A DNA stretch of 64,000 nt from Candidatus Altimarinota bacterium (GTDB taxonomy: Bacteria; Patescibacteriota; Gracilibacteria; BD1-5; UBA2023). The notes beneath the pieces were generated by a model. The model saw only the letters and a program-made list of their open reading frames with translations. It did not search any database and was not told where the DNA came from. A program made the position numbers and the translations under genes. Below, in pieces: positions 7,020 through 10,582 of this stretch. How positions within the stretch are numbered: the first letter of the stretch is position 1; each line of letters opens with the position of its first letter. Location of the stretch: positions 1-64,000 of the forward strand of contig JABFSX010000009.1 of the NCBI GenBank assembly GCA_013268835.1, given 5' to 3'.

Positions 7020-8552
7020 TTATTTTTTCTCCACTCTTGATCCATTTTTTTCATCGATAATCTTGTATCCGATTGCATCGAGTTCGTCACGAATACGATC
7101 TGATTCCTTATAGTTTTTTTGGAGTTTTGCTTCATTACGTTCTGCAAGAAGGGCAATTATCTCATTTGGTATTATCTCATTGGATTCCAGGAGTTCAAAA
7201 TCAAATATAGCAACGACTTCGTTCCAAGTTTTGAGGAAATCAATAACAGATTTGCATTCTTCGAGTGAGAAGAGTTCATCATCGATCCCGCTATTGATAT
7301 ACGTCTGATACTCGAATACGATTGTCATGGCACCAAGTGTATCGAAGTCATCTTCGAGTTTTTCGATGAATTCTTGCATAAATGCTTGTTGATTATCTCG
7401 AAACTCACGAGAAATCTCATGGAATTTGAGACGTCATTTGGCTGTGCGCTCTCGGAGATCTTCGAGTTCAGTTCATTCTACTTCATCGCCGATGAGTTCA
7501 TTTTTGTATCTTCCAAGTCGTTTCATCATCTCATCGAGTCACTTGATAGTATTGATACTTGCCTGAAGTCGATCCTGTGTAAAGTTAAAATTCTCTCGAT
7601 ATTGATTCTGGAGTCACATGAGACGGAATCCTCTTGCAATCAATGTTTCTGAGGTATCGCTATTTTTCGCAAATATATCTCGAAGGGTATAAAAGTTGTT
7701 GGCACTCTTCGCCATTTTCTTGTTGTCTACCAGGAGATGGCCCCCATGCATCCAGTATTTCGAGAATTGTTTTCCAGAATATGCCTCACTCTGGGCAATC
7801 TCGTTCTGATGATGTGGAAAAATAAGATCACATCCTCCCATATGAATATCGATCTGTGGGCCGAAGAATTTCATATTACAAGCAGAACACTCAATGTGCC
7901 ATCCTGGACGACCTTTTAGGATTTTCTTATTTCATTCGATAGTTACCTCGATTTCCCAGAAGTTTTCTCCATCGGATTCTCTATCATATGCTTTCCAGAG
8001 AGCAAAATCAGCCACCTGTTCTTTGTCGTATTCGTCATTATCGATGCGTACGCTCGAAATCATCCCTTTCATATCCAGATGAGCGAGTTGTCCATATTTC
8101 TTGAACTTGCTCACACTATAGTAGACACTTCCATCTTCAGCAAGATAGGCAAATCACTTCTTGATGAGTCCGTCAATAATCATTCCCATATCAGGGATAA
8201 GGGTAGATATCGGAGCTATAGTGTCAGCAGGAAGAATCCCGAGTTTTCTACAATCATCAAGAAATTCTCTTGTATAGAATTCTGTAAAATCCTTGAGAGT
8301 TTTTTCTGATTTTTGACTATCACGAATCGTCTTGTCATCAATATCGGTTACGTTCATTACCGTTTTGACTTTGTATCCGAGGAACCTGAGGGTACGAACC
8401 ACAATATCATCCATCAGATAATTCCGAAGATTCCCAATATGAGCGTAGTTATAGGGAGTTGGGCCACAATAGTATACCTTTACTTCATCTTGTTTGAGGG
8501 GTTTGAATCGTTCTATCTCTCGTGTGAGGGTATTATAGAATTGGAGGGACAT
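7020..8552 (-). CDS. cysS: Cysteinyl-tRNA synthetase
   Basis: This class I synthetase charges tRNA-Cys and is 510 aa long. Visible signatures are [19 protein letters not shown] (HIGH box as HIGN, first zinc cysteine in YYCG), [35 protein letters not shown] (zinc Cys and His) and KKMAKSANN (KMSKS as KMAKS). The C-terminal helical domain ends [22 protein letters not shown] 8552 gives the standard N-terminus [19 protein letters not shown]. It heads the minus-strand run cysS-argS-exporter. The 210 bp upstream separates it from the divergent gene at 8763. Confidence 0.97.
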
Positions 8553-8762
8553 AGGTCTAGGATTATGAATAGGATCTGAGTATAGTCAAAAACTGAGAAA
8601 AATCGACATATATCAAAAAATATAGTTGACTATTAAATAATTTTAATTAAAATAATTTTTTCAGTCTGAGATTCTTTCAGATAAATTCGTCTTTGCTCCA
8701 CCTCGGTGGTGGCAGGATTCTAGAAATTCTTTTTTGGGACGATCAGTCCGGAGGTTAACATT
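8553..8762. promoter_or_regulatory. Divergent intergenic region with structured leader
   Basis: These 210 bp separate cysS (minus) from the small membrane gene at 8763 (plus). The left half is very AT-rich. The right half (about 8695-8760) is clearly more GC-rich and holds a small hairpin (CCACC TC GGTGG), a near-palindrome around ATTCTAGAAAT followed by six T, and a strong Shine-Dalgarno (CCGGAGG) 8 bp before ATG 8763. Most genes in this window lack such a strong ribosome site. The near-palindrome plus T run could act as an attenuator. I could not assign a known riboswitch or leader class. Confidence 0.4.
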
Positions 8763-9050
8763 ATGCAAGTTATTCCGAATAAGCTCATTCCACTTATGCA
8801 TGAAAAACGTCTTTCATTAGGCGAAGCTGTGCAGGTGATGTTTACAGCTGGTTATGTGACAGTAATTCCGGTAATTGTATTACTTACATTACTCGAGAAT
8901 AAAGTCATGTTTGGTTTTACGCTCGGAGTTATGGTAGGCATTCTGCTACTAATAAGGTCGGATTCTCCATGGCGTAATTTGCTTATAGCAAGTGCAACAT
9001 GGCTCGGTGTATGTGCCAGCATGCTTGTCATAAATCTTGCAACACACTGA
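8763..9050 (+). CDS. Small two-helix membrane protein, apparently ending at UGA
   Basis: The predicted product is 95 aa if the UGA at 9048-9050 terminates, with two or three hydrophobic segments (VTVIPVIVLLTLL, GFTLGVMVGILLLI, WLGVCASMLVINLA). I do not recognise the family. The start is well supported by a strong Shine-Dalgarno. Its end is odd. In this genome UGA means glycine, and the frame then runs without TAA/TAG straight through a perfect intrinsic terminator (9076-9105) and into the next gene, to the TAG at 9666-9668 (301 codons in all). All six glycines before the UGA are GGN, and the base composition looks less AT-rich than its neighbours. It could be a gene acquired from a standard-code donor, a regulated nonstop gene, or a single 301-aa ORF. 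Confidence 0.6.
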   Translation: MQVIPNKLIPLMHEKRLSLGEAVQVMFTAGYVTVIPVIVLLTLLENKVMFGFTLGVMVGILLLIRSDSPWRNLLIASATWLGVCASMLVINLATH

Positions 9051-9052
9051 CT

Positions 9053-9068
9053 CTCGTTGGAAAACGAG
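9053..9068 (+). other. Hairpin two bases after UGA
   Basis: CTCGTT-GGAA-AACGAG forms a perfect 6-bp stem with a four-base loop, starting two bases after the UGA at 9048-9050 and seven bases before the terminator stem. It could be a 3' stabiliser or part of the end-of-gene signal. A bacterial selenocysteine insertion element is a remote alternative, disfavoured because the terminator follows at once. Confidence 0.5.
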
Positions 9069-9075
9069 AAAATCC

Positions 9076-9105
9076 AAAGCCCCGCATTGCGCTGGGGCTT
9101 TTTTT
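9076..9105 (+). terminator. Intrinsic terminator inside an open frame
   Basis: The stem AAAGCCCC/GGGGCTTT (8 bp) has a 10-base loop and a T run. It lies 25 bp after the UGA of the small membrane gene and is strong by any rule. The surrounding frame has no UAA or UAG, so a transcript ending here would carry no usable stop codon under table 25. Confidence 0.9.
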
Positions 9106-9150
9106 CTTGCATCACTATATTTGACATTATTAAAATTTATTTAAAAGTAA

Positions 9151-9179
9151 TTGACAATGTATTATTTATATGTTATAAT
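9151..9179 (+). promoter_or_regulatory. Consensus sigma-70 promoter
   Basis: TTGACA (9151-9156), a 17-bp spacer and TATAAT (9174-9179) match both consensus hexamers exactly, and TGT just before the -10 gives an extended -10. The predicted start is near 9186, about 18 bases before ATG 9204, with AAAGG as ribosome site. It drives the gene at 9204. Confidence 0.85.
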
Positions 9180-9203
9180 TGTTTTGTTCTTTTTGTAAAG
9201 GTT

Positions 9204-9668
9204 ATGAAACATCCTGTCTCACAGAGACACAACGGTAATGGAGTAGAGCTCTTGCAAGCTATGTTTACTCTCTTGGTGCTCTCTGGTATATATGTATTTT
9301 CTACTACTTATAGTGGTAATACAGCATCTATCAGAGATATACCGACGAAGCCAGCTATATTATCAGCCCAATATTGGAATGATACCATCGGCTACGGATT
9401 CACAAGTATTCCAGGGGATACATATGCAAAATCAGGAAGTAGTGAAGTTGATCAGGTAACTATTCATCCTTGAGATGGTGTAGTATATAACGATCAATCG
9501 GTTCGGGTATCTTTTTATTCTCGACTCTCAATAGAGGATATAGAGCAAAAAAATACACAAACCACACCACGAACCTATTCTCGCTTGCCTGGTGGTATAG
9601 CAATGATCGAATGAGATCTCTCATCTAATCGAGCAAAGACCATTCTAGCAACACTTCATAGTCGTTAG
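9204..9668 (+). CDS. Small secreted or membrane-anchored protein, unknown
   Basis: The product is 154 aa and I do not recognise its family. A short basic N-terminus (MKHPVSQRHNG) precedes one hydrophobic segment (LLQAMFTLLVLSGIYVF), so it is either exported or anchored with the C-terminus outside. The rest is polar (PGDGVVYNDQSVRVSFYSRL) and ends KTILATLHSR. Two glycines are UGA (HPGDG, IEGDL), so this gene does follow table 25, unlike its upstream neighbour. It has its own promoter and terminator, so it is a single-gene transcription unit. The start is set by the promoter distance and the AAAGG site. Confidence 0.75.
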
Positions 9669-9733: not shown

Positions 9734-10140
9734 TTTTTTTTATTTATTCTTTTTTCGTCATTGCGAGGTACAAAGCAATCCAGTTTTTCTGAGTTCTAAC
9801 TTACTTTTTATGTAAAAAGTAACAATATATTCCCTTTACTTTTGATATCAAAAATACAAAAATATTTCTTTTATTATATCTCTGTACTTTTATGACTAAA
9901 AGTACCAAAAGTCCTTCTTTTGTCTTTGCTCGTTTTGTATTCTGTTTGCGACTTGTTTTCTAAAATTCCAAAAACTAAGAAACCTTTGGAATTTTTGCGA
10001 AAACTGCGTCGACAGAATAGAAAAACTCACAAAAATAAAGAAGCAAAATGGAGATATTTCTTAGTAGTATGTAAAGAAAGGGTGAATCTGATTGCTTTTT
10101 TCATCATTTTTACTATTATTCATCCGTTCATTAACATCTT
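9734..10140. repeat. Non-coding stretch with nested inverted repeats
   Basis: This holds about 400 bp with no convincing gene. It contains a CGTCATTGCGAG element (9756-9767, a motif common in dispersed bacterial repeats), a perfect palindrome TTACTTTTT-atgt-AAAAAGTAA (9801-9822) and another, GTACTTTTA-tgac-TAAAAGTAC (9884-9905). A long imperfect hairpin spans 9939-10018, with core AAAATTCCAAA/TTTGGAATTTT and outer ATTCTGT...GCGAC/GTCGACAGAAT. This looks like a small non-autonomous repeat element or stacked dispersed repeats. A possible ssrA promoter (TTGCTT 10092-10097, TATTAT 10114-10119, 16-bp spacer) lies at its end. Confidence 0.55.
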
Positions 10141-10582
10141 GGGGATGATATAGGATTCGAGGAAAAGACTCGTACGTCGTATATGCTCTGTTGGGGCGGC
10201 TCGCCTCGTTATCAAAGGGCAAACAATAGATGCAAAAACATCACCTCTCGCTCGTCTTGCTGCTTCTTTCAAGAAGTCTGTGACTCCTGCGTTCGCTTTC
10301 GCTGCGTAATTGCTCGAAAGTGTAGCCTCCTATTATAGGATGAGTGCCGGATGGCCTGCTACAATTTTCATTTTCCGACATTGATAGGGGAGTGTCATAT
10401 TTATCAATTTTACCTTTGTCTCGTTGACACAGTTCTCGCAAAGTGTTCATATCTGAGATCGTGTTTTTCTGAGAGCTTTTTGCCCATTCGTTATTCTCAG
10501 AAATATTAGAACTGGGCTATGCAGAGTAGAATTATACGATATACCTTTTTCGACGCGGGGGCGGTGCCCGCCATCTCCACCA
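10141..10582 (+). ncRNA. ssrA: Transfer-messenger RNA (tmRNA)
   Basis: This is the one-piece tmRNA, 442 nt, that rescues ribosomes stalled on mRNAs without stop codons. The 5' end GGGGATGATATAGGATTCGA matches the conserved tmRNA start, and GGGGATG pairs with CATCTCC before an encoded ACCA. The T-stem GCGGG/CCCGC is perfect. The tag frame resumes at GCA 10232 after the AATAGAT context and ends at TAA 10307-10309. It encodes 25 residues beginning AKTSPLARLA and ending PAFAFAA, a proteolysis-type terminus. The T-loop reads GGCGGTG instead of the near-universal TTCRANY. A terminator follows at 10599. Confidence 0.95.

Follow-up and report, generated by a model that had tools for sequence, protein, structure and literature searches.

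ArfA of E. coli and BrfA of B. subtilis are conserved rescue factors that act through RF2 and have selected nonstop messages. Their mRNAs end before an in-frame stop codon, which brings them under the control of tmRNA. A second, engineered system is recoded E. coli without RF1, in which UAG-ending genes undergo tmRNA tagging and are lost (Ma et al. 2018, PMC6207430); no release factor there recognises the stop codon with which such a gene arrives, termination fails, and tagging blocks the expression of transferred genes. Finally, phages compatible with the standard code have been predicted for Gracilibacteria (PMC10746230), i.e., standard-code genes without internal TGA enter a host that uses genetic code table 25 and reads UGA as glycine. 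We compared these systems with a small gene in a 64,000-nucleotide stretch (the window) of assembly GCA_013268835.1 (1.36 Mb, 25 contigs, 94% complete, possibly a metagenome bin). An earlier note on this DNA had proposed it to be a nonstop-regulated gene linked to the tmRNA gene ssrA. The features of the locus are the following (window positions):

7020–8609, minus strand: cysS (cysteinyl-tRNA synthetase), native left flank, divergent, 7 internal TGA codons
~8627–9113, no strand assigned: inserted segment, separating cysS from the promoter of the 153-aa gene (borders approximate, ~10–30 bases)
8626–8653, plus strand: TTGACT-16-TAAAAT (10/12 matches), candidate promoter of the small gene; AT-rich surroundings
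8660–8762, plus strand: leader, containing several small hairpins; its folding is not significant (z = −1.9)
8763–9047, plus strand: ORF for a 95-aa hydrophobic protein (P0001), helical by prediction, with 6 Gly codons, all GGN
9048–9050, plus strand: UGA, a stop in the standard code and glycine in the host organism
9053–9068, plus strand: short hairpin CTCGTT-GGAA-AACGAG in the interval between UGA and terminator (folding centroid; arms 9053–9058 and 9063–9068, GGAA loop)
9076–9107, plus strand: strong intrinsic terminator AAAGCCCCGC...GCTGGGGCTTT followed by a T run (stem 9076–9101)
9151–9179, plus strand: promoter of the 153-aa gene, perfect sigma-70-type TTGACA-17-TATAAT with extended −10, conserved in relatives
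9207–9668, plus strand: conserved gene for a 153-aa protein, 2 TGA-Gly codons, aligned by relatives from Met 1
10141–10582, plus strand: ssrA (tmRNA), Rfam match of 75.9 bits

The positions of the ORF (8763), the UGA (9048) and the terminator (9076) given in the earlier note were all correct. The small ORF is complete under table 11: it ends with UGA, contains no internal TGA, and is preceded by the Shine-Dalgarno sequence GGAGG at 8750–8754, correctly spaced 8 nt upstream of the ATG at 8763. The length of this ORF was reached in 1.8% of the shuffles under table 11 and in 6% under table 25; that a 95-codon ORF arose by chance is moderately unlikely. The hydrophobicity of its product was above that of 99% of the shuffles, and the predicted structure consists of helices only (mean pLDDT 61). 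Sites like the candidate promoter of the small gene were no commoner than in shuffles. As an alternative to a protein-coding gene, the segment could produce a structured non-coding RNA of ~440 nt with a fortuitous ORF. As a whole, the segment folds more stably than shuffles (z = −3.0, partly via the terminator), and the protein has no homologue; however, the insert had no Rfam match over threshold, the folding of the leader on its own was not significant, and the well-spaced GGAGG as well as an ORF length and hydrophobicity exceeding chance argue for translation. We thus regard a non-coding RNA as improbable.

The UGA at 9048 lies 25 nt upstream of the terminator (folding z = −3.5 for 9040–9110), and no in-frame TAA or TAG is present between it and the terminator end. 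Under table 25, the frame from 8763 is open through the terminator and into the next gene, as had been noted, and closes with the TAG at 9666–9668 after 301 codons. From the UGA through the terminator this run comprises ~19 codons without TAA or TAG. The earlier remark that the open run is not in itself improbable agrees with our estimate: ~19 open codons are unremarkable at the local composition, with a chance of about 0.5. As far as the sequence tells, the transcript would have no usable stop before its end, as with arfA and brfA. Homologues of the 153-aa gene were found in relatives, including all four congeners, and the promoter at 9151–9179 is kept at about the same distance from it. Since the 153-aa gene is conserved from its own Met and has its own promoter, the 301-codon ORF is fortuitous. 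Judged from this conservation, it is a by-product of the 95-codon ORF, a spacer that lacks a stop, and a downstream gene, unrelated to the ORF, which happens to share its frame. This rules out a single 301-aa gene, which had been considered before. We also rejected a duplication of the 153-aa gene as the source of the 95-aa protein, as the protein similarity was not above that of shuffles (p 0.37).

TGA makes up ~24% of the Gly codons in the sampled native ORFs. The only RF1/RF2-type match in the assembly scored above the cut-off for prfA and below that for prfB; with no score over the prfB cut-off, RF2 was not detected in the assembly. ARAGORN found a 79-nt tRNA with the anticodon TCA, labelled SeC, which we take to be the UGA-reading tRNA-Gly in view of the known code of the group. 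Because RF1 occurs without detectable RF2 and goes together with a TCA tRNA and with the use of TGA for glycine, the UGA at 9048 should be read as glycine and not as a stop. The genome contains SmpB, and the tmRNA gene said to lie ~1 kb downstream was located at 10141–10582; its tag, as judged by eye, is likely AKTSPLARLAASFKKSVTPAFAFAA-UAA (~25 aa, ending in AFAFAA). ARAGORN misses this tmRNA, and the Rfam match is clear. The claim of a nonstop mRNA is thus sound in its logic: no RF2 was found, a candidate UGA tRNA, tmRNA and SmpB are present, and the terminator comes first. The message itself and its tagging we infer; the expected course is the one seen for UAG-ending genes in recoded E. coli (PMC6207430).

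Comparison with relatives shows that the small gene lies on an insertion. The site was readable in seven of them (four congeners and three others; G001, G002, G003, G004, G007, G012, G017), and in each it is empty: the conserved promoter region directly adjoins cysS, and nothing between the two matches window 8660–9113. In relatives without the insert, cysS (named from its protein sequence, with homologous DNA in the same place), the 153-aa gene and, in most, ssrA are retained in place, and the majority of relatives with the 153-aa gene have ssrA nearby. The insert is single-copy in its own genome. Its left border resembles the right flank at 9116–9152 (imperfect direct repeat of 38–40 bp, p ~0.004–0.01), perhaps a weak trace of a degenerate repeat arising from insertion. 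Absence from the orthologous site in close relatives is what one expects of an acquired gene. As the segment is absent from the equivalent neighbourhood in relatives, the order of gene, terminator and ssrA lacks conservation, which makes a tmRNA sensor unlikely.

If the gene were native and under nonstop control in the manner of arfA or brfA, its product would normally be destroyed through tmRNA and would accumulate when tmRNA fails. Such a gene would have the anatomy found here: a UGA read as sense, an in-frame terminator, and ssrA 1 kb off. However, relatives in which ssrA and the genes on either side are retained lack the gene, and its position beside ssrA is not conserved. Its hydrophobic product matches no rescue factor in Pfam or NCBIfam, RF2, through which ArfA and BrfA work, was not found in the assembly, and the other genes with the same ending (pyrC and PEP-CTERM genes, described below) have no rescue role. 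In contrast to the conserved, RF2-dependent arfA and brfA, the small gene is a lineage-specific insert of no known family in a host without detectable RF2. We therefore consider regulation of this kind highly unlikely. The link to ssrA drawn in the earlier note is not supported, and the closeness of the insert to ssrA looks like an accident of the insertion site.

The homology search for the 95-aa protein that had been suggested gave no homologue, and hence no candidate donor, in the collections searched. None was present in 76 relatives of the order, and 379 genomes across the phylum gave only weak matches (per-genome E of at least 4e-4), of which those at L046–L049 (23–34% identity over short stretches) were taken as chance matches among hydrophobic segments. 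Searches of phage, plasmid, viral and species-genome collections were negative as well, where the genome and viral scans detect close relatives only. No Pfam or NCBIfam family, and so no rescue factor, matched the protein, and at the DNA level the insert matched nothing in phages, plasmids or E. coli. We rejected a phage holin or plasmid gene, as neither protein nor DNA matched phages or plasmids and the best PHROGs hit had an E of 0.12; an NCBIfam holin_3 match (E 0.014) was far below the cut-off and fell on the downstream stretch.

The composition of the gene is not distinctive. Its codon usage takes rank 182 among 815 chunks and falls inside the native range, so that foreign codon usage is unsupported, and the lack of TGA among only 6 Gly codons has a p of 0.19. 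Since neither homologues nor composition point abroad, the foreign origin of the protein is deduced from the insertion and from analogy with other acquired genes. The codon usage and the likeness of the two flanks of the insert would also fit a young native orphan, arisen or duplicated in place, with UGA coding for Gly96 and the missing stop being a defect or tolerated. The segment is, however, a compact standard-code unit with UGA 25 nt from the terminator, and it has parallels among identifiable acquired genes, making such an orphan very doubtful.

These parallels came from a home-made terminator scan, which covered ~1.1 of the 1.36 Mb, read in stretches, and from a search for PEP-CTERM genes in related genomes. 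The scan gave 249 terminator-like sites, 157 of which follow an ORF ending with TAA or TAG. Nine of the 249 follow a TGA-free ORF that ends with TGA and is open through the terminator under table 25; some of the nine are other-frame noise and several are real genes. The candidates L051, L071, L084 and L106 resembled other-frame ORFs and were dropped. The following genes were retained or found in relatives:

L066:12604–14660 (contig C15), minus strand: pyrD-pyrC pair without internal TGA; pyrC ends with TGA, followed by a terminator
C1:223142–224407 (L080:3142–4407; contig of 396 kb), plus strand: two tandem PEP-CTERM paralogues (TIGR02595 over cut-off), both with TGA, then a terminator
L105:10318–10869: TGA-free ORF, TGA before a terminator, without clear family
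L077:10679–11056: TGA-free ORF, TGA before a terminator, without clear family
L144:1254–1959 (G003) and L160 (G008): PEP-CTERM genes with UGA, then a terminator

In the pyrD-pyrC pair, PyrC was identified as dihydroorotase (401.6 bits, cut-off 293) and the product of the upstream gene, pyrD, as DHO_dh (Pfam, 140.6 bits). The pair has a GC content of 0.47–0.49 and 55 Gly codons, none of them TGA, and neither TAA nor TAG occurs between the TGA of pyrC and its terminator. Native ORFs flank it, with a gene for a secretion/pilus ATPase on one side and the infA region on the other (both named from their sequence), and it is absent from the equivalent site in G004. The nearest PyrC relatives found were gammaproteobacterial, the best full-length match being 54% identical; PyrC matches of G020 and G011 were left out as high-GC frames on possible contaminant contigs. 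Together, seven acquired-looking genes (one from G003) have 136 Gly codons and not a single TGA (p ~5e-17 at the native rate). Like the small gene, the PEP-CTERM and pyrD-pyrC genes have a TGA-free body, their own Shine-Dalgarno sequence and a UGA near a terminator, partly without another stop; they belong to known protein families, whereas the 95-aa protein does not. The acquired units share no common leader: that of the small gene was no more similar to the others than expected by chance, and only the PEP-CTERM leaders were clearly alike. Since all examples from the own genome except PEP-CTERM were picked for TGA followed by a terminator, the fraction of open cases among them is biased.

The PEP-CTERM search gave matches in 9 of the 76 genomes of the order. 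Together with one gene from G003, the 12 readable genes of this search make 13, all with TGA-free bodies; 8 end with TAA and 5 with TGA. Four of these five (two from G000, one each from G003 and G008) are open through the terminator, and in that of G035 the TGA is followed at once by TAA. The copies in G003 and G008 are flanked by TGA-containing ORFs. The pyrC genes of G019 and G036 end with TGA and have a usable stop a few codons on. Both open and stopped endings thus occur, and nothing suggests a preference for open ends. On imported genes in this group whose stop does not fit the code, the literature covered gave phage work (PMC10746230) and engineered systems but no account of this pattern; as that coverage was incomplete, novelty is not proven.

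The insert could also come from another organism in the sample through an assembly chimera or a mixture of strains. The bin indeed contains standard-code phage-like contigs, and the relatives lack the insert, but several independent inserts lie between native genes, in this genome as well as in G003 and G008, on contigs of up to 396 kb. It is unlikely that such chimeras arose again and again in assemblies made separately, and we give this explanation quite a small chance. Contigs C6 (L058, L089, L101) and C14 (L065), with high-GC stretches (0.44–0.47) and TGA-free phage-like ORFs, look like standard-code phage or bin contamination.

We consider it fairly likely that the small gene was acquired horizontally from a standard-code donor, that its UGA no longer stops, and that its mRNA is nonstop by accident, with a product probably tagged by tmRNA. 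The possibility of a standard-code donor, mentioned in the earlier note, thus fits best: several acquired-looking genes share the UGA-then-terminator ending, and the best reading of these sequences is that the small gene is one of several such genes in its own and related genomes. The occurrence of the same defect in other imported genes points to an accident of transfer rather than to a built-in sensor. A standard-code transcription unit of ~490 bp, complete with leader, Shine-Dalgarno sequence, 95-aa membrane protein, UGA and terminator, would have been taken up from a bacterium that uses the standard code, or from a phage of such a bacterium, and would have entered the genome where cysS adjoins the promoter region of the 153-aa gene. 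A member of JAEDAM01, a related table-25 group, has been observed to live on floc-forming Zoogloea and has competence protein EC (PMC11393006), which makes uptake of DNA from neighbours plausible. In the RF2-less host with UGA as glycine, the ribosome would read through UGA 9048 and, after a further ~18 codons, stall where the terminated transcript ends; tmRNA-SmpB would then tag the product. Because of this tagging, expression of the small gene would probably be low or silenced, except if the cell tolerates the extended C-terminus or another rescue operates. The stall would fall at the transcript end and the tagging is presumed, which sets this gene apart from recoded E. coli, where UAG is unassigned and the strain engineered, whereas here UGA is assigned to glycine in a natural lineage. 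The predicted Gracilibacteria phages differ in that they typically use non-TGA stops, whereas the genes described here have bare UGA stops and lie on chromosomal contigs.

A wider proposal, that bacteria with UGA as glycine acquire genes of the standard code again and again (PEP-CTERM, pyrDC and those for small membrane proteins), which then come under tmRNA control, is in our view possible but unlikely; the sources would probably be host or prey bacteria. If the proposal were true, an unreadable UGA together with a terminator would act as a genetic firewall of natural origin, and part of the genes may be retained and put to use in that state, e.g., expressed when trans-translation is saturated or with a short tail that is tolerated. 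A code change as a barrier to gene transfer has so far been tested in engineered E. coli. Table-25 genomes would provide natural cases, with recently acquired unreadable-stop genes, UAA-ending sisters and a tmRNA pathway that should act, and would let the cost and repair of mismatched stops be measured in nature.

Between the 153-aa gene and ssrA, the intergenic sequence at 9756–9781 (CGTCATTGCGAGG...) resembles a dispersed repeat, with one other copy at L057:3977 among the own-genome stretches fetched.
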